Part shown: piece by piece, positions 31,815-41,459 of the stretch | Layout: the number at the start of each line of letters is the position of its first letter | How positions within the stretch are numbered: the first letter of the stretch is position 1 | Source: Persephonella marina EX-H1 | Lineage (GTDB): Bacteria > Aquificota > Aquificia > Aquificales > Hydrogenothermaceae | Assembly: GCF_000021565.1 (NCBI RefSeq) | Contig: NC_012440.1 | Span: forward strand, 186,001-250,000 | Direction: 5' to 3' | Length of the DNA: 64,000 nt | Translations under genes and position numbers: made by a program | Notes under the pieces: model-generated | The model's database searches: none | The model's input: only the letters and a program-made list of their open reading frames with translations | What the model was told of the DNA's origin: nothing

Positions 31815-32243
31815 TCACATCAATTTTTCTACAAAATCTTTTGTATTTATCTTCTTTATATCTGGTGAATAAAAATCATCATCGTTGGATAAGATTAAAT
31901 CACATTCATTTTCTTTTGCTAAAACATATTGGAGTGTATCTTCTAAGTCTTTAAAGTTTTTATCTTCTTGCATTAAATCTATAGCTTTTTGGGTTTCTTC
32001 ATTTGAAAATGGTATTAAGTATAGCAAATCCAAAGTATATGAAAGATTTTCTAAGGCTTTTTGTTTGTTATATTTTCTCAATACATAATACACAGTGGTT
32101 ATCAAATCACAACTTGTCAAAAGCTCTACATTATTTTTTTGTAAATAGAAAAAGGATTCCTTAGAATATTCGCTGTAAGGACGGTCTTTTAAAAACAGGT
32201 CTAAAATAATATTGGCGTCTACAAATACCTTTTTATAGTTCAC
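31815..32243 (-). CDS. vapC: PIN domain ribonuclease toxin (VapC type)
   Basis: A 142-residue PIN domain protein. The N-terminal acidic residue is D9 in KVFVDANIILDLFLKDRP; the central KDLEDTLQYVLAKE and the C-terminal LILSNDDDFY hold the other metal-binding acids. VapC toxins cleave tRNA or rRNA. The start overlaps the end of the antitoxin-like gene upstream by 11 nt, the usual toxin-antitoxin arrangement. The four acids are seen by motif only; activity is inferred. Confidence 0.88.
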   Translation of the reverse strand: MNYKKVFVDANIILDLFLKDRPYSEYSKESFFYLQKNNVELLTSCDLITTVYYVLRKYNKQKALENLSYTLDLLYLIPFSNEETQKAIDLMQEDKNFKDLEDTLQYVLAKENECDLILSNDDDFYSPDIKKINTKDFVEKLM

Positions 32244-32496
32244 TCCCCATCTGCTCCTTGATTTTTTGTATGGTGATATTTGGATCTATTCCTTCAAAGT
32301 ATTTCCTATTTTCAATAATCCTTTTTAGAGCTTCTAACTTCTTCTTTTTTTCTATTTCTTTATATACTTCGTTTATCAGTTCTTCTATTAGCTCACTTTG
32401 AGATTTTTTCTCTATTTTTGCAAGCTCTTTTAGTTTTTCTTCTGCTTCTTTGGAAAGGGTAATATTCTTTCTAACTTTTCTGCTTTTAACATTCAT
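32233..32496 (-). CDS. vapB: Ribbon-helix-helix antitoxin (VapB type)
   Basis: An 87-residue protein. The N-terminus, KVRKNITLSKEAEEKLKELA then KSQSELIEELI, is a ribbon-helix-helix (CopG/MetJ-like) DNA-binding domain; the rest is a charged helix that would wrap the toxin. It lies directly upstream of, and overlaps, the PIN toxin gene. Autoregulation is likely: a perfect 7-bp inverted repeat lies 25 nt before its start (32521-32537). Confidence 0.85.
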   Translation of the reverse strand: MNVKSRKVRKNITLSKEAEEKLKELAKIEKKSQSELIEELINEVYKEIEKKKKLEALKRIIENRKYFEGIDPNITIQKIKEQMGSEL

Positions 32497-32870: not shown

Positions 32871-33371
32871 TTATAAATTACTTAAGTTGTTTTCATTTGA
32901 TAGCATTCTTATAAGCCTTTTGGCCAATTTCTTTAATGTCCAAGCTTTTTCTCCCTCTATATATACAGCAATTTCATGATTCTGAACAAGTCCTCCTCCG
33001 CTTATATTTGCTGAGCCAAGAATAGCTCTTTTCCCATCAGAAACTATTAATTTAGCATGTAATGGATTTCTGTCAGAATAAAAATAAAGATTAAAATTTT
33101 CATATTTTTGCAATCTGTTGAGGATATCTGTTGTTTTTGTGCTGTGTTGGATAGATCCTTCTATAACAAAATTTACTTGAACACTATTTTTAAGTAGATT
33201 CTCAAGTTTATTCCAGAAATTTTCCGGTTTTGCCGATATTGTATACATGATAATAAAAAGCTCATGTGCAGTATTGTCTAGCATTTCAAGTAACTTACTT
33301 TCAACACTTACAACACCTTCTTCGATAAAAACATAACCTGAAGAAAGTATCTGGATCTTATCTTTAGGCAT
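32871..33371 (-). CDS. drmC: DISARM protein DrmC (phospholipase D-like domain)
   Basis: A 166-residue PLD-fold protein with one HKD-type motif: H105-x-K107 followed by GSAN at residues 119-122. Single-motif PLD proteins act as dimers, for example as nucleases. It is the last gene of the operon, 5 nt after drmB, the position DrmC takes in DISARM loci. DrmC was reported as dispensable in some systems. It is shorter than many DrmC proteins, and the N-terminal region is reduced. Recognition rests on motif plus order. Confidence 0.82.
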   Translation of the reverse strand: MPKDKIQILSSGYVFIEEGVVSVESKLLEMLDNTAHELFIIMYTISAKPENFWNKLENLLKNSVQVNFVIEGSIQHSTKTTDILNRLQKYENFNLYFYSDRNPLHAKLIVSDGKRAILGSANISGGGLVQNHEIAVYIEGEKAWTLKKLAKRLIRMLSNENNLSNL

Positions 33372-33376
33372 ATCCT

Positions 33377-35233
33377 TTATAGCCAGTCTTTCAATAAATT
33401 TATGTTTTCATTAAATAAATTCCTGTCTAACCATAGATTTCTGTGATCACAAGATGTCTCTGAAATAGCCGTACAGGAATAACAGGAAGCTCCAGCATAT
33501 TTACCAATATTAAATTTGTTTTCAGTGCATACAGGATCATTAGAACAGGAATGAGAAATATTTATAACATTATTAAAGATTTTTTTCATTCTTTTTTCCT
33601 CCACAAGAGAAACCAGCCCTCCTAATGCCCCTCCTTCATCCTCTGTTGCGGTATAAAGAACTACACCTCCCGAAGGATTATCTGTGTTTATATCAGTTAT
33701 ATAAATTTTTTCTCTTATGGATGTGGCTGGATATCCGGAATATAGAGAAAGAACTTTTATTAAAAGATGAGCAAATGTATGAAGGAATACGAAGGTGGGA
33801 TGTAATTCATACTTTTCTTCTTTTATTTTAAACAAAAATTCCTGATTATACATATTTCTATTTTTAAAAGCTTTTAACCATGATTGGAAAGTATCGGTTT
33901 CTTCATTCAATTTGATTTTATGAAAATCCAAAAATATACCTTCCCCATTTATCATTATTGAAGGAAAGTAATAAGTACCATCTTCTCCTGTTTTATGGAT
34001 AAGTACAGGTTTTCCTTTACTTATATCAAGTCTTCTATAAGCCACCTGTGTCTCCACAACTGTGAGTATATCTATGGGTGTTACTGATAAGAACTTTTTA
34101 GAAATTGTTTTTGTCGAATTTATCTCCAGATATTTTCTTCCTGTCTCTGGTAAATCTTCCAGCTTACCTGTAATAGCACCTTCATGTAAATTTCTATATT
34201 CCATATCAATTATATCTCTATAGGAGTATTCTTTTTTTTCTAATTTTTTTACTTCTTCAAGATACTTTTTTAAAGCAAGAATATCACTTTCATTTTTCTT
34301 AAGCTTATTATATTCTTCTTCTGATATATTTTTTGCTTCCCTAGCATTTTTAAGGATATTACGGAATTTTGCTTTGAGATTATCATAGGATAATAGCCCC
34401 TCTTCATAAAATTCTATTGTTGTCAAGATTTCAACTGACATAGCAATGTTTGAAGCCAGAATACTTCCTATTTCATTTGAACGAGGCCATACCATAAATA
34501 TGGATTCAATTTCGGGAATCCTGAGATTAGAAGCCATACGAAGAGATACAGTTGCATTTTCTGAACAGTCTTCTTCAAACCTCTCAGAAGACCTTGGTCT
34601 TTCTTTTTCTGGAAATCGACCAGTACATTTTAATTTTCTATTATATAAATCACTGAGTTTAATATACCTTTTGCATTCTTCACATATTATTTTGGTTTCT
34701 GAGGTGCCTGTTCCGGGACCCTCCCATCTAAAGTATGTCCTACTACATCTGGTAGGTTTATTATTTTTATATATTGTATGAACTTCCATATCCCACTGAA
34801 TATCATCAAGATGCCCATTTTCACATACCTGAATAAATCTTACTGGAGAGGATTTTGTTGGATAATCCCCCCTGCAACGGGGACAATCTTTCTGACTTCT
34901 GTAATCATATTTCCATAAAATTCTGTGCTCAGGACATAAATACCATTTCTGGAAGTTTTTTGCAGAAAATTTTATGTTTTTTTCTTCACTGGAAAAAGGC
35001 AACTCAAAAATTCTAACCCTCAAATCTTTTAAATCCATTCTGTTCTCATATTTTTTTATTATGGATTTGAGATAGCTTTCTAAAATAGGATCTTTAATAA
35101 GATAACCTCTCTGTAAAAAATCACGAGGTTCACTTCCTGTATCAAATGATAAAATAATTGCAGGTGTTCTTGGGGTTTCTATTATTGCTCCCGGTCCATA
35201 TGTTCTTATAAACTGAGACCTTCTAATTTCCAT
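33377..35233 (-). CDS. drmB: DISARM protein DrmB (DUF1998 domain)
   Basis: A 618-residue protein. The N-terminal third has Cys pairs of zinc-ribbon type (CPRCRGDYP near residue 119, CENGHLDD near 137, CEECKRY near 184). The C-terminal part is a DUF1998 domain: FAHLLIKVLSLYSGYP, then TATEDEGGALGGLVSLVEE, and the terminal cluster CSNDPVC and CYSCTAISETSCDHRNLWLD. DrmB forms the core complex with the DrmA helicase, which loads on DNA with unmethylated or free ends. It lies 17 nt after drmA. DUF1998 proteins also occur in MrfAB repair helicase pairs. Confidence 0.9.
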   Translation of the reverse strand: MEIRRSQFIRTYGPGAIIETPRTPAIILSFDTGSEPRDFLQRGYLIKDPILESYLKSIIKKYENRMDLKDLRVRIFELPFSSEEKNIKFSAKNFQKWYLCPEHRILWKYDYRSQKDCPRCRGDYPTKSSPVRFIQVCENGHLDDIQWDMEVHTIYKNNKPTRCSRTYFRWEGPGTGTSETKIICEECKRYIKLSDLYNRKLKCTGRFPEKERPRSSERFEEDCSENATVSLRMASNLRIPEIESIFMVWPRSNEIGSILASNIAMSVEILTTIEFYEEGLLSYDNLKAKFRNILKNAREAKNISEEEYNKLKKNESDILALKKYLEEVKKLEKKEYSYRDIIDMEYRNLHEGAITGKLEDLPETGRKYLEINSTKTISKKFLSVTPIDILTVVETQVAYRRLDISKGKPVLIHKTGEDGTYYFPSIMINGEGIFLDFHKIKLNEETDTFQSWLKAFKNRNMYNQEFLFKIKEEKYELHPTFVFLHTFAHLLIKVLSLYSGYPATSIREKIYITDINTDNPSGGVVLYTATEDEGGALGGLVSLVEEKRMKKIFNNVINISHSCSNDPVCTENKFNIGKYAGASCYSCTAISETSCDHRNLWLDRNLFNENINLLKDWL

Positions 35234-35250
35234 TATTTTAATTCCTCCAT

Positions 35251-38200
35251 TTAATATGGATGTATTTCAATATTAACTGTATCTTCAATGTTTCTTAGGG
35301 AGTTTGGAACACGACGATAAACTACAAAATCTTCCGATAATTTTTCGTGTTCCAGATCTCCAAGAACAACTGGATTTTTAACTTTGAAGTATTCTGTAAA
35401 AAGTAGATTTCTGTTAATTCTTGCAACTCTTTTCCATTTATCAAGCCCCTGATATCTATCCTTTATTATGGATTCTAACTCGGAACTATCTATTTTTCGT
35501 ATTTCTGCTTTTTGGCATTCATTTCTTTTCTGCAAAATGTTCGCTGCTCTGTTAAAATCACTTTGAATTTCCGGATTATGATGCCAGTTTTTCATTTGTA
35601 TGGGAGATTCATTAGATATCCAGTTTATTTTCATATTTCGCGAGTTTCTCATTATACCGACTATTACTGGCCCATTTCCACGGTAAACTGCACCTTTGGA
35701 GAATGGAAACACAGAAACCTCTTCTACATATCTATACAATGCTAAATGATACCCTGCAAAAAATTCATAATGACTTATATCACGTGGTCTGGTTGATCTA
35801 TAAAATGTAATTACAAGAGCTGTATTTTTCCTTCCAACACGTCCAGTGGCCTGAATATATGTTGCAGTTGTTTTAGGTTGCCCATTCATTATCATAAACC
35901 TTAAATGTGGAATATCTACACCTGTACCAAATACTGATGTAGTAATTATAAAATGTGGGTTTATTTTTTCTTTTTCTAGCTGTTCTATTAATAGGGATAT
36001 TTCATCTGAATCCATGCGGGACGACAATTCAAGTATATCTGTCTTTTCTGGAAGTTTACCTTTAAAACCAAGATCTTTTGTAAGTCTTTCACTTATATCC
36101 TGTTCAAGAATTCTTCTACCACCTGCGAGTTCTCTTACTGCGTTGTAATACCCAACCATAGGATTATTTCCCTGGGTTAATTGATCTGTCATCCACAATC
36201 TTGCATACAGCCTTACCTGTGGAGTTAAAGGACCTTTTCCTGGAGACATAACGCCAATATAAATTTTTCCAGGAACATACTCATTAGAAAGTATATTATC
36301 CAGAGAAGGAGTTTCTATTCTGGAGAAAAAGTTATCTTCTATATTCAATCCAACAGGTGGAAACTGAAATGCTTCTCTTAAGAACAATGCATCTGTCTGA
36401 TATCCTGCATGTTTTATCGTTGCTGTAGATGCTATATACTTTAATTTTTTTCCTTCACTATTTTCTTTACATAATTCTTCTATTATTGTTTCATAAAGTC
36501 CGACCAGAGATCCCAAAGGTCCTTCTATAAGATGTAATTCATCCTGAATTACAAGTTCTGGTGGTTCTGGTTTATTAACTGGTATACCATACTTGGTAAT
36601 ATCTTTCAGATCTCTTCTTGCAGAATATATAGCATCTTCTCTAAAAAAACCATATAAAGAGCTGTAAAAATCAATATTCCCAAATATAGAGGCAGTGGCA
36701 GGTTCAAATGGTAATCTCGCAAACTTATCTACAGTGGATATTATTATGGATGGAAGTTTTGAATATATTTGTTCATCCACAAAATACGCAGGAACTGGTA
36801 TAAAATTCTTCATCCAAGAAAATTCTTCAAATTCAGAAGTATCAAATATGCTTATAAAATTATCTTTTGAAGGAACAAGTTCATGCCATTCATAATTATG
36901 ATTATTAAGTGGACAATCTATATTTGGACAAAGTATTGTAAAATCTATATAGATTGAACCAGTTTTACCCCATGGAAAATACCCCGGTTTATCTGGAGAT
37001 AATGATAAAAGTTCCATCTCATATCCAAGTGTATTTATGTTTGACTGTAAATCTTCCCATATTTCTATAACATCATCTGGTTTAAGCTCCCCTGTTAATA
37101 TATATATTTTCATAAAGTAAATTTCATCCTCTGTATCAACTTTTCTTATTTCTAATGGTTCAAAATCGTAACTTTCATTTTCTGCTATGAGAGTTTTCAG
37201 CGGTTCAAGAACATCTTCGTTTATATTATTTCCTGAAAAACTGTGTAATCTCACAATAAAATTCAACTCAATTCCGTTATCTTCAGTTAAAATACCCTCT
37301 TCCGGTATAGAAAGATATTCTCCACACACAGGACATCTAGAAATAAGAGCTACATTTTGAGATCTCTTCAGGTTATAAACTTCATTCTTATCTCTTTTAT
37401 CATCACTGCCTGATAGTTTATAAATAGTATCATTTTTTTTAAGTAAATCAATGGCTCCATAAAACTTTTTTCCACCTCTTCCTGTAGTTGTATGTAACTT
37501 ATTTGGAGTTATTGCTCCTCCAACCCATAAACCTGCAGAAAATCTATACTTCTCCCACACATAATCATCTTTTACTTTTTCTTCAGCCCATCCAGGTAAC
37601 CATCCTTTATTGCCAGATTTATTAGGAAAAATTCTGAGATATTCGCAGGCAAGTATAGTTTTTAGAGTCCTAGTGAATTGCTGAACAGTTAACAGTCTCA
37701 ATGTATACCTCGATATTATTGCTGTCCCATATCCTGTGTCCTTTTTAGTTCTTCTTCTATAGGCGAGTAGAAAAGCAGATATGGCAAGATAAGATTCTGT
37801 TTTTCCTCCACCTGTAGGTACCCACAGAATATCAATATAATTTCTGTCAGGAGAATCTGGATTAACAATAGACTCCATAGTCATGAGGAAAAAAGCAAGC
37901 TGAAAAGGTCTCCACTTAAATTCCTTTTTTCCTGCCCAGTCTTTCTGGACAACAGAAATTACTTTGTTTGCGAAATTAAAACATAGAAGAACTTCTTCTT
38001 TTTCTTTTAGCAGATTAATTCCCTTTTCTATTCGGTCATATACGATCTCATGCTTATTTATAATTTTCTCAGCAAGTGATGGATTTGATGTATGAGAAAT
38101 TTCTTCTTTCTTTCGTAATATCCAATTCTTATATTTATTCAAAAATGTACTGAAATAGTTATCTATCTCATCAGGTTGGATTTCTGATAAAACTTCCGGA

Positions 38201-39210
38201 TCAAAATTTATGCCTTTAATATCAAAGTCCGGTATACCCTGTGGTATAACAGGTAAAAATTCTGTCCTTAAATCACATTCAAGAAATTTTTTGTATTTTT
38301 TCTCATCTTTATTTTTTATTGTCTTACCATCCACCCACATAAAATCAAATTTATCTGGATTTTCCTGTAATGGATCTATTTCTTTCCATATAGCAGCGCA
38401 CATACTGCCTTTTGCAGGGAAAAGAGTATTACTTTCCAAATATGGAAATTCATATAACTTTTCTTCTTCATCTATTCCAGTTTCCACTGCCCTTGAGTAT
38501 GAACCTGACAGTTTTCCTTTCTTAATCTTTACTCTTATTTGAGGCTGAAAAATAAGATATTCTGTTGGAGGATTTATAAGATCTTCATATTCCCGTGGTA
38601 CTTCTGTTTCGTTTATAAGATAAACTGAAATGAAGTATTTATTCTTACTTTTTAATCTTTTTTCTATTTTTAATCTTAACTTATTTTCATATTTTTTTTC
38701 ACCAATGATAATCTCTTCTTCGGGAATTTCAAATTCTTCTTCGTCTTTTTCAAGTTTTATATCTTCTTGTACATAAGAGAAACTCTTCCTTATCCATTTT
38801 TTTCTTTCTTCTTCGTTTTCATCAGATTTATTACTTTCTTCAATTTTAAAATATTTGCCCCATGTAACGCATAAGTCAAGTTCTATTGTTTCTTTTGATT
38901 CTACCGAAAAGTTTATTCCTATACTGACAGGAAGTTTTCGTGGATTAAGAACAGGATTAAGGAGTTCTGAAGATACAGGTTCTATATCAGGAGAAACCTC
39001 TACATCTTCTTCATCAAGTTTATCCAATATAATTTCATCTTCTATAAATGCGCTTTTACCGTCAATTTTTACTGCATGCTTTGAAGAAGAAAGAATTCCT
39101 GTAATGAATTCATTTGCTGGATTTTGCGTTTCCAGAATCTCTTCCGGGTCAAAATTTCGTGGTCCCAGTGCATCTCTGTAAATATCCTTTATATAGTCAA
39201 GCAATGCCAT
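35251..39210 (-). CDS. drmA: DISARM helicase DrmA
   Basis: A 1319-residue SF2 helicase. Walker A is WVPTGGGKTESYL near residue 465; the Walker B/DEAH-like box is QDELHLIEGPLGS near 889; the C-terminal helicase motifs VFGTGVDIPHLRFMI and IQATGRVGRK lie near 1100-1125. A Cys pair (CPVCGEYLS, near 622) and CPNIDCP (near 765) suggest a zinc site between the motor domains. The first 330 residues are a charged, beta-rich domain with no clear match. It lies 2 nt after the glycosylase gene. Size, motif order and the drmA-drmB-drmC order fit DISARM. Confidence 0.9.
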   Translation of the reverse strand: MALLDYIKDIYRDALGPRNFDPEEILETQNPANEFITGILSSSKHAVKIDGKSAFIEDEIILDKLDEEDVEVSPDIEPVSSELLNPVLNPRKLPVSIGINFSVESKETIELDLCVTWGKYFKIEESNKSDENEEERKKWIRKSFSYVQEDIKLEKDEEEFEIPEEEIIIGEKKYENKLRLKIEKRLKSKNKYFISVYLINETEVPREYEDLINPPTEYLIFQPQIRVKIKKGKLSGSYSRAVETGIDEEEKLYEFPYLESNTLFPAKGSMCAAIWKEIDPLQENPDKFDFMWVDGKTIKNKDEKKYKKFLECDLRTEFLPVIPQGIPDFDIKGINFDPEVLSEIQPDEIDNYFSTFLNKYKNWILRKKEEISHTSNPSLAEKIINKHEIVYDRIEKGINLLKEKEEVLLCFNFANKVISVVQKDWAGKKEFKWRPFQLAFFLMTMESIVNPDSPDRNYIDILWVPTGGGKTESYLAISAFLLAYRRRTKKDTGYGTAIISRYTLRLLTVQQFTRTLKTILACEYLRIFPNKSGNKGWLPGWAEEKVKDDYVWEKYRFSAGLWVGGAITPNKLHTTTGRGGKKFYGAIDLLKKNDTIYKLSGSDDKRDKNEVYNLKRSQNVALISRCPVCGEYLSIPEEGILTEDNGIELNFIVRLHSFSGNNINEDVLEPLKTLIAENESYDFEPLEIRKVDTEDEIYFMKIYILTGELKPDDVIEIWEDLQSNINTLGYEMELLSLSPDKPGYFPWGKTGSIYIDFTILCPNIDCPLNNHNYEWHELVPSKDNFISIFDTSEFEEFSWMKNFIPVPAYFVDEQIYSKLPSIIISTVDKFARLPFEPATASIFGNIDFYSSLYGFFREDAIYSARRDLKDITKYGIPVNKPEPPELVIQDELHLIEGPLGSLVGLYETIIEELCKENSEGKKLKYIASTATIKHAGYQTDALFLREAFQFPPVGLNIEDNFFSRIETPSLDNILSNEYVPGKIYIGVMSPGKGPLTPQVRLYARLWMTDQLTQGNNPMVGYYNAVRELAGGRRILEQDISERLTKDLGFKGKLPEKTDILELSSRMDSDEISLLIEQLEKEKINPHFIITTSVFGTGVDIPHLRFMIMNGQPKTTATYIQATGRVGRKNTALVITFYRSTRPRDISHYEFFAGYHLALYRYVEEVSVFPFSKGAVYRGNGPVIVGIMRNSRNMKINWISNESPIQMKNWHHNPEIQSDFNRAANILQKRNECQKAEIRKIDSSELESIIKDRYQGLDKWKRVARINRNLLFTEYFKVKNPVVLGDLEHEKLSEDFVVYRRVPNSLRNIEDTVNIEIHPY

Positions 39211-39212
39211 GG

Positions 39213-39899
39213 CTACCTCCCCTGATTTTTATAAATACAACAAAAATTCCTTAATGGGCACTTATCGCAGTCTGGATCTTTGGGTTTACATACAAGTGCC
39301 GCGAAATCAATAAGAGCATAGTAAAAAACTCTTGGGTCGTTCTTATATATCAAGCAGTAAATATAATTACGAAACAATCTGCTTCTCCTTGAAGAATCAG
39401 TTATTTTCAGACAGAACAATCTTCCGGTCACGCGAACAATATTTGAGTCAAGAAGAGGTAATGGATTGTTCAGTGTAAAAATAATAACTGCTGCTGCTAT
39501 ATAGTCTCCTATTCCTGGTAAGGATTTTAATTCTTTATGATTGAGTGGAATATTACCTCCATATTTTTCTCTCAGTATTAAAATCATCTTATTGAATAAT
39601 TCCTGCCTCCATTTTAGTCCAAGTGATTGCAGTAAGGGTGAAATCTCTTCTTTTTTCGCTTTTAGAAGGCTTCTTATATCTGGAAATTTATCAATAAAAT
39701 CTTTATAGACTTTTTCAACCTGTGAAGAATTAGTTCTGTGCAAGAAAATCTCAGCTATTAATACTTTGTATGGATCCTTTTCAAATCTCCAGGGATAAAT
39801 TCTTTTATGATCTTCCCACCATGAAAATAGTTTTTCATGAAAATGTTTAACATCAAAGTCATCTAACAAAGCTTTACAATTTACACTTGTTTTTTTCAT
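39213..39899 (-). CDS. HhH-GPD DNA glycosylase of MIG/MutY type with 4Fe-4S cluster
   Basis: A 228-residue glycosylase. The helix-hairpin-helix is LKSLPGIGDYIAAAV, with Tyr133 where endonuclease III has its catalytic Lys. The catalytic Asp is D151 in LLDSNIVRV, and Glu50 sits at the MutY catalytic Glu position (AEIFLHRT). Cys204, 211, 214 and 220 give the C-x6-C-x2-C-x5-C iron-sulfur site. The protein ends right after the cluster, so the MutY C-terminal 8-oxoG domain is missing. This matches Mig.MthI-type thymine glycosylases that act on T:G from deaminated 5-methylcytosine. The 4-nt overlap with the cytosine methylase gene supports this. A short MutY is the alternative. Confidence 0.8.
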   Translation of the reverse strand: MKKTSVNCKALLDDFDVKHFHEKLFSWWEDHKRIYPWRFEKDPYKVLIAEIFLHRTNSSQVEKVYKDFIDKFPDIRSLLKAKKEEISPLLQSLGLKWRQELFNKMILILREKYGGNIPLNHKELKSLPGIGDYIAAAVIIFTLNNPLPLLDSNIVRVTGRLFCLKITDSSRRSRLFRNYIYCLIYKNDPRVFYYALIDFAALVCKPKDPDCDKCPLRNFCCIYKNQGR

Positions 39900-40819
39900 C
39901 TCAACAATATTGTTTTTAATAGTCCCCCGATAAGGTAAGAAAAATCCGGACTTACTGCATCAGCAATCATCTGATATCTCATACCTTTTCCCATTCCTTC
40001 AGGAAATGCAAAATCATCCTTAAATCCGAAAATTGCTTCTGCCTCTCTTATGGATATTGTTCTTTTAGGTCCCCCATTATTAAATCCGGGATGCAGAATA
40101 TAAGTTTTCATGATATTTCCAAAAGATGGAGAAGGCTTATTCCAGTCGAGAATATACCAGCCGAATTTCCCGGTTTCATATTTATCCAGATATTTATCTA
40201 TTGTTTTGAGATTAGGCCATTCATGATCTGGAACTTCTTTTTCTTCTTTGTTTCTGTATTTTTCTATAACATGTTTTACAGTTTTTGGAGAATTTTTTGA
40301 TCCAATAAGAAGTTTTTCAAATTGCTTCCGTGCACTTTTATCTTTATAAAACCCAAAAGCAAAATATCTTTCCCTTGCTATTGCAGCTCCAAAGTCTGAA
40401 TACTTGATTTTAGTTTCATATATACTGTAGCCATGAGCTCTGAGTTTCCTGATAAATTTTCTTAAAGTTTTATCTTTTCCTACAGGGACAACATTCTCAA
40501 ACACAAAAACTGCCGGTTTGATTTCTAGGACATGTAAAAAATATTTTTCCATTAGAACAAAATCCTCATGAGAGGATCCTCGCTTCTTTAAATTGAGCGT
40601 GGACCAGGGTTTACAGGGGGAACCTCCGACTATAATATCTGGATTTTCATCAAAAATAAAGTCATTTTTCAAATCTTTTATGATAGCTTTACCAATGCAA
40701 TTTTTCTCAAAAATTTTTTCTACCCATTTATTTATGTCAACACCAGTAATTTCATAGCCAGCTTTAGATAATCCATAGGAAAATCCACCCATCCCACAAA
40801 AAAGATCAAGTACTTTCAT
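39896..40819 (-). CDS. drmMII: DNA 5-cytosine methyltransferase (DrmMII type)
   Basis: A 307-residue C5-methyltransferase. Motif I is VLDLFCGMGGFSYGL at residues 3-17, motif IV is GGSPCKPWS with catalytic Cys69, motif VI is FENV (E108-N109-V110), motif VIII is near FAFGF, and the C-terminal SYLIGGLL region closes the fold. It marks host DNA; class 2 DISARM uses such an enzyme. It is the first gene of the five-gene operon and overlaps the glycosylase gene by 4 nt. The target site is not readable. A weak AAGG precedes the ATG. Confidence 0.9.
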   Translation of the reverse strand: MKVLDLFCGMGGFSYGLSKAGYEITGVDINKWVEKIFEKNCIGKAIIKDLKNDFIFDENPDIIVGGSPCKPWSTLNLKKRGSSHEDFVLMEKYFLHVLEIKPAVFVFENVVPVGKDKTLRKFIRKLRAHGYSIYETKIKYSDFGAAIARERYFAFGFYKDKSARKQFEKLLIGSKNSPKTVKHVIEKYRNKEEKEVPDHEWPNLKTIDKYLDKYETGKFGWYILDWNKPSPSFGNIMKTYILHPGFNNGGPKRTISIREAEAIFGFKDDFAFPEGMGKGMRYQMIADAVSPDFSYLIGGLLKTILLR

Positions 40820-40880: not shown

Positions 40881-40908
40881 AACAGGTTCCTCGTGAAGGG
40901 AACCTGTT
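40881..40908 (-). terminator. Hairpin terminator between the 29-aa ORF and drmMII
   Basis: AACAGGTTCC at 40881-40890 pairs perfectly with GGAACCTGTT at 40899-40908, with an 8-nt loop. On the reverse strand the stem runs into TTTTTG, as in a Rho-independent terminator. It lies 8 nt after the 29-codon ORF stop and separates it from the DISARM operon, which must have its own promoter; none is clear at 40820-40880. Confidence 0.7.
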
Positions 40909-40915
40909 AAGAGTT

Positions 40916-41005
40916 TTACTTTCTCTCACAAACTGCAGTCCTTATCACTTCAGCAACAATTAATACGGCTACTTCAAGAGCTATAAGCAGAGTTTTCGTG
41001 TTCAA
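40916..41005 (-). CDS. Membrane micropeptide (29 aa)
   Basis: TTG at 41005 is preceded by a near-perfect AAAGGAGGTG about 5 nt upstream. The product, starting MNTKTLLIALEVAVLIVAE, is one hydrophobic helix followed by a short tail with Arg, Cys and Lys (VIRTAVCERK). It ends just before a strong terminator and overlaps the 3' end of the Cas4-like remnant in another frame. Size and topology resemble type I toxins, but no antisense RNA can be shown from sequence alone. Confidence 0.5.
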   Translation of the reverse strand: MNTKTLLIALEVAVLIVAEVIRTAVCERK

Positions 41006-41459
41006 TGCTTACACCTCCTTTGTTATTTACTGGACAGCAGTGTTTGTAAAAGCAGTATTTGCACTGCCATTCTTTTACATCCAGAGTTTCTTTGTCCAGA
41101 AGGTTTAGTGTTTCCATATCTTGCTGTGATAATGTATAAATGAGGTTTACTTTGGCTTTAAGGATTTTGATATCCTCATCAGTTAGCTGGACGGGATATT
41201 CGTAAATCTCTCCTGTTGATTTTTCTATGTAAACTATCAAACCTTTTTCTTTTCTAAGCAAATACATATATCCTGTTAGCTGAAATATATGATGGGGATA
41301 CGGCAGAACTTCAGCTTTCTTTAATGTCCACGGTGATATTGTTTTAAATTCACTTACGGTATTATCAATAACTCCGTCAGGATGTCCAACAATTTTAAGT
41401 TCGTGGTCGTATATTTCCTGCTCTACATATTCGAGCTTATCTCTCAGTATACCTGCATA
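40974..41459 (-). pseudogene. Cas4-like PD-(D/E)XK nuclease, 5'-truncated
   Basis: The frame is open from just after a TAA at 41460-41462 to TGA at 40974, about 161 codons with no good start codon before the conserved core. The core is recognisable: GHPDGVIDN (Asp), SEFKT (Glu-x-Lys), then the helix motif QLTGYMYLL (Q-xxx-Y), as in RecB/Cas4 nucleases. The C-terminus has WQCKYCFYKHCCP, like the C-terminal Cys cluster of Cas4. The N-terminal part with the first cysteine is missing, so it is probably a remnant. No CRISPR array or cas1/cas2 is in the window. An internal Met at 41267 lies after the active site. Confidence 0.65.

Follow-up and report, generated by a model that had tools for sequence, protein, structure and literature searches.

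DISARM systems of class 2 are built from drmMII, drmA, drmB, drmC and drmE, and the type II DISARM rule of PADLOC demands DrmE (PMC9252829). The ATPase activity of DrmAB is stimulated by unmethylated DNA and is lower on 5-methylcytosine DNA (PMC9142583). Among the DNA glycosylases of the HhH-GPD fold, V45 and Q182 are the adenine-specificity residues of MutY; their counterparts in Mig.MthI are A50 and L187, and F27 and R47 of Mig.MthI contribute to the thymine methyl pocket (PMC2714593). The self-mark known for class 2 DISARM is set by a cytosine methylase. Pairs of a methylase with Mig or with Vsr have long been known from restriction systems.

The DISARM-type operon of Persephonella marina

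We analysed a window of 64,000 nucleotides (positions 186,001-250,000 of NC_012440.1) from Persephonella marina EX-H1, a thermophile of the Aquificota with a chromosome of 1,930,284 bases and a genome of 1,983,966 bases. Five genes follow one another on the minus strand from window position 40819 to 32871, with overlaps or gaps of no more than 17 nt:

40881..40908, minus strand: terminator-like hairpin with a T-rich tail (consensus scan only)
39896..40819, minus strand: DrmMII, 5-cytosine DNA methylase, 307 aa (PADLOC PDLC02655, 615.6 bits; Pfam DNA_methylase, 136.8 bits)
39213..39899, minus strand: predicted HhH-GPD mismatch glycosylase, 228 aa (Pfam, PDB, alignment, AlphaFold model)
35251..39210, minus strand: DrmA helicase, 1319 aa (PADLOC PDLC02571, 1585 bits; NCBIfam DISARM_DrmAL, 1659 bits)
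33377..35233, minus strand: DrmB (MZB/DUF1998), 618 aa (PADLOC PDLC02583, 716 bits; NCBIfam DrmB_fam)
32871..33371, minus strand: DrmC, PLD-type nuclease, 166 aa (PADLOC PDLC02614, 175 bits; Pfam PLDc_2)

The methylase and glycosylase genes overlap by 4 nt, and gaps of 2, 17 and 5 nt precede the genes of DrmA, DrmB and DrmC, respectively. The hairpin is located just 5' of the methylase gene and sets the operon apart from a preceding 97-aa ORF. Open reading frames, spacing and the PADLOC, NCBIfam and Pfam matches confirmed the tight reverse-strand operon with DISARM genes described in the first-pass annotation. Both the catalytic PC motif (SPCKPWS) and the ENV motif were found in DrmMII. The score of DrmA against the NCBIfam model compares with a cut-off of 999, and the protein matches the solved DrmA structure (PDB 7s9v) with E=8e-101. 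DrmC contains an HxK...GSxN motif. Locus L013, from another species of this family, has the identical five genes in identical order.

According to Pfam, the operon has PIN and ribbon-helix-helix genes as neighbors on one side; the opposite side holds the 97-aa ORF and genes of the FIST and GGDEF-EAL types. The PIN-domain and ribbon-helix-helix genes (31815-32496, minus strand), 3' of DrmC, resemble a toxin-antitoxin pair. The 97-aa ORF (40974-41267, minus strand) had no match in a Pfam scan and carries a WxCxYCxxxxCC motif like the iron-sulphur tail of Cas4/RecB-type nucleases.

The locus has DrmA, DrmB and DrmC as contiguous genes of a single operon, as is characteristic of DISARM, and its DrmMII is the 5-cytosine methylase typical of class 2. 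No DrmE was found among the flanking genes (Pfam). Since no DrmE adjoins the operon, we call it class 2-like and not type II by the PADLOC rule (PMC9252829). The earlier assignment to class 2 therefore holds for drmMII together with drmABC and is qualified by the missing DrmE. The operon is best explained as a predicted anti-phage DISARM of the cytosine-methylating kind.

Companions of the methylase across DISARM loci

Scanning genomes with an alignment of DrmA proteins yielded 80 DISARM loci. Family searches added further loci from Aquificota, Methanosarcinia, Anaerolineae, Archaeoglobi and Methanobacteria; searches in two further classes returned solely loci that were already known. Class names are those of named seed loci, and all loci were annotated with one profile set. 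DrmA proteins of the window type form a clade of 30 loci (SH-aLRT 100). Twenty members of this clade have an intact methylase-bearing region, the truncated loci L063, L066, L070, L186, L187, L192 and L196 being excluded.

The first-pass annotation had considered that the glycosylase might be a single accidental insertion which relatives of the operon routinely lack. Instead, a mismatch-type repair gene is found in 20/20 clade loci with an intact 5-cytosine methylase region: a Mig-like glycosylase in 14, a Vsr endonuclease in 4 and a lysine-type HhH protein in 2. The suggested search for drmA loci with an adjacent HhH-GPD gene thus revealed a recurrent arrangement. The order methylase-glycosylase-DrmA on one strand occurs in 13 of the 14 Mig-like loci, which span Aquificota, three archaeal classes and Anaerolineae; the remaining one (L065) is a composite island. 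The Vsr genes were identified by Pfam PF03852 above its cut-off. They are adjacent in G159 and G412 and lie 1.9 and 3.4 kb off, beyond HATPase genes, in G263 and G288; the latter two may belong to another system. The lysine-type, EndoIII-like HhH domain is fused to the methylase in L068 and separate in L071.

None of the five clade loci without a DISARM cytosine methylase has a repair companion. Here L064/L214 and L213 (Methanobrevibacter-type, with a methylase and no companion) are counted as lacking a DISARM methylase because the methylase of L064 adjoins an Eco47II restriction enzyme. A companion within 1 kb was observed in 18/20 loci of the clade, compared to 4/25 DISARM loci outside it that have a cytosine methylase in range (Fisher p=6.6e-7, a value that overstates independence since the loci are related). 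The recurrence counts in general are not phylogenetically independent.

Sister branches of the DrmA tree differ in whether they carry Mig or Vsr, and this alternation is seen both in Methanosarcinia and in Anaerolineae. That two unrelated T:G-mismatch enzymes occupy one position speaks most strongly for a role in repairing deaminated 5-methylcytosine. Four of the loci with the methylase-glycosylase-DrmA arrangement belong to Methanosarcinia, one of them to a named Methanosarcina, a genus whose members mostly live at moderate temperatures. The proposed link to thermophily was not borne out by these loci and by Vsr serving sister loci, and a thermophile-specific role was ruled out on the same grounds. 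The DrmA of the window itself forms a long branch within a mainly archaeal group of the tree, which suggests a transfer from archaea.

A comparison of the window with L013 resulted in dS values of 0.30 for the methylase and 0.33 for the glycosylase, as against 1.32-1.46 for DrmA, DrmB and DrmC. Nucleotide identity falls near position 39,300, at the 3' end of the glycosylase gene. The low dS of methylase and glycosylase and the position of this break indicate that the two genes were exchanged together, as a single cassette. The dN/dS of 0.20 corresponds to purifying selection, which we count in favor of a repair partner. Methylases of the Mig-type loci fall into several subfamilies with identities down to ~20%, and the glycosylases are 30-50% identical between lineages. 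Co-divergence of glycosylase and DrmA was significant with all loci and was not upheld once near-copies were removed (r=0.33, p=0.14). Members of the same glycosylase clade are also located at sites that lack DISARM, next to methylases and HATPase-type genes (L248-L250); together with a further such methylase neighbor (G133) they rule out a DISARM-exclusive glycosylase family.

Exchange limited to methylase and glycosylase, the pairings outside DISARM and the lack of a clear correlation between glycosylase and DrmA distances would also fit a separate mobile modification module, parked beside DrmABC with no functional tie to DISARM. We consider such a module improbable, because the 13 loci keep methylase, glycosylase and DrmA together on one strand across distant lineages, the order stays constant though the methylases diverge strongly, and class 2 is known to mark self-DNA by a cytosine methylase. 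Cassette exchange and non-DISARM pairings rather point to a glycosylase that is primarily a methylase partner and has been stably adopted by one DISARM clade. As cassette exchange, Vsr replacement and non-DISARM pairings indicate, its earlier description as an integral DISARM part has to be amended: it is integral to the methylase module.

Further arrangements were observed at individual loci. In Desulfallas sp. Bu1-1 a 678-aa ORF directly 3' of DrmC (L068:16346-18379) combines an N-terminal EndoIII-like HhH domain with a C-terminal 5-cytosine methylase; the best PDB match of the HhH domain is Deinococcus EndoIII-1, with a weaker match to plant ROS1. A fusion in reverse order (L109:10559-12574) adjoins a different DISARM kind; here a degenerate HhH and iron-sulphur domain, without the usual catalytic Tyr/Lys, comes after the 5-cytosine methylase. 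On plasmid p96k of Deinococcus sp. AJ005 (L052:11636-13327), Vsr and a 5-cytosine methylase directly adjoin a class 1 DISARM operon. At L253:5767-8041 and L252:7525-9475, DrmA/DrmB from another DISARM clade are accompanied by methylase-glycosylase pairs whose glycosylases form a branch of their own. Proteins of ~970-1030 aa are encoded directly 3' of archaeal DISARM genes (L060:8060-11083, L061:16001-19099, L177:10599-13643, L195:14487-17531, L209:12078-14993) and are absent from the window operon. They had no match in Pfam (L060, L061) or PADLOC (L061, L209) and are possibly an unrecognised DISARM component.

Active site and phylogeny of the glycosylase

The HhH-GPD domain of the glycosylase is barely over the Pfam cut-off. 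The best PDB match is Mig.MthI (1kea, E=5.7e-38), with MutY nearly level (E=1.3e-36), and the AlphaFold model (pLDDT 90.6) yields TM scores of 0.84-0.87 to both. As these scores are equally near to Mig.MthI and to the MutY core, structure comparison was uninformative for telling the two apart, and the active site is more informative.

In PADLOC the glycosylase matches a single model, whose label is type II nicking endonuclease. This label and the position within a defence operon could indicate a defence effector that removes bases from phage DNA that is unmarked or modified, DrmC or host enzymes then cutting the abasic sites. Such PabI-type base-excision restriction is a real mechanism (PMC10273834). 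For this protein, however, we judge it quite unlikely. The PADLOC model is also matched by three other loci, its label covering Mig-like proteins generally, and there is no sequence-recognition domain outside the HhH-GPD core (Pfam, AlphaFold model). Furthermore, the glycosylase interchanges with Vsr, a mismatch endonuclease, and it does not replace the nuclease, because DrmC stays beside it in most loci. It is possible that the glycosylase additionally attacks phage DNA.

Tyr133 and Asp151 align with Y126 and D144 of Mig.MthI. The 4Fe-4S cysteines C204, C211, C214 and C220 are arranged as C-x6-C-x2-C-x5-C, and at 228 aa the protein is too short to include the C-terminal domain of MutY. Alignment and length thereby bear out what had been read from the sequence at first, and the protein shows the general features of the Mig type (HhH-GPD core, catalytic Tyr and Asp, 4Fe-4S, no MutY C-terminal domain). 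Because EndoIII has a lysine where this protein has the tyrosine, a monofunctional glycosylase is predicted. Further active-site residues are E50, R55, S58 and a Tyr at the Q182/L187 position.

All 14 glycosylases of the DISARM clade keep E42, R47, Y126, D144 and N146 of Mig.MthI and have F or Y at position 27. A50 is kept in most of them, and at L187 the majority have Y or F; the MutY glutamine at this position (Q182) occurs in 0/14, with Y, F or L found instead. The MutYs in the alignment have L27, Q47, V50 and mostly Q187 (Mig.MthI numbering). With S58 for A50 and Tyr for L187 the window protein differs from Mig.MthI, yet it has neither the V45/Q182 pocket nor the C-terminal 8-oxoG domain of MutY. 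These residues are in line with the predicted thymine-type, rather than MutY-type, active site.

In both phylogenetic trees 13 of the 14 DISARM-clade glycosylases form one clade (99/97; larger tree 99/99). MutY forms a clade of its own without DISARM-linked glycosylases (100/99; 100/98), and Mig.MthI falls among restriction-linked proteins (96/94; 94/87), apart from the DISARM-linked clade. The latter joins MutY in one tree (97/95), and the branching is weakly resolved in the larger one (93/88). The tree proposed in the first-pass annotation thus places the glycosylase not beside Mig.MthI and also not inside the MutY clade (100%), so that the grouping with MutY named there as counter-evidence was not found as stated. 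An ordinary MutY-type A:8-oxoG glycosylase that is in the operon by chance, which near-equal PDB and fold scores, an NCBIfam MutY score of 167 bits (under the 286 cut-off) and the joining with MutY in one tree might suggest, is highly improbable and was ruled out by residues and tree, as the C-terminal domain and the MutY residues L22, Q42, V45 and Q182 are missing and the MutY clade excludes the protein.

Proposed mechanism and comparison with known systems

Based on gene order, homology, active-site residues, recurrence, Vsr replacement and co-exchange with the methylase we propose that the glycosylase is a putative, Vsr-like partner for T:G repair that serves the self-marking methylase in the same operon (probability roughly three in four). 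The substitutions of A50 and L187, the placement outside the Mig.MthI clade and the non-discriminating fold were counted against this reading.

The methylase would put 5-methylcytosine on host DNA as a self-mark, and DrmA/DrmB, with the DrmC nuclease, would act on unmarked DNA. Deamination of 5-methylcytosine would yield thymine and hence a T:G mismatch. In the next step the HhH-GPD protein, acting as a monofunctional glycosylase, would take out the T (or U) of the mismatch. AP endonuclease and polymerase of the host would then put C back, whereby self-mark and sequence are retained. We infer the T:G activity from the sequence, and likewise that repair protects the self-mark. More doubtful is the idea that cytosine-methylating DISARM depends for its function on the repair of deaminated self-marks, and that this repair prevents autoimmunity besides mutation. 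In that case, host DNA that had lost 5-methylcytosine marks would be open to DrmAB if neither glycosylase nor Vsr were present.

Full-text searches, which included MutY and very short patch repair and covered few subscription papers, returned no description of a glycosylase in DISARM. The locus extends the described DISARM parts by a predicted repair enzyme, and two unrelated T:G-mismatch enzymes trade places next to the self-marking methylase. This yields a concrete, testable claim about a hidden cost to immune systems of bacteria and archaea that mark their own DNA with 5-methylcytosine.

Compared to class 2 DISARM, DrmMII, DrmA, DrmB and DrmC of the window match their dedicated models strongly, whereas DrmE is missing and an extra glycosylase is located between methylase and DrmA. 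Mig.MthI, from Methanothermobacter plasmid pFV1, is likewise a short HhH-GPD protein with 4Fe-4S, Tyr/Asp and thymine-pocket residues near a 5-cytosine methylase. It accompanies an NgoPII-type restriction system, however, and the window protein is only ~31% identical to it and belongs to a different clade. With MutY the glycosylase has fold and catalytic-core homology in common, but not the C-terminal 8-oxoG domain and the adenine-specificity residues. Vsr, a known partner of 5-cytosine methylases, has the same predicted role, and some sister DISARM loci have it where the glycosylase is otherwise found. The two differ in fold and chemistry: Vsr nicks DNA, whereas a glycosylase of this type excises the base.
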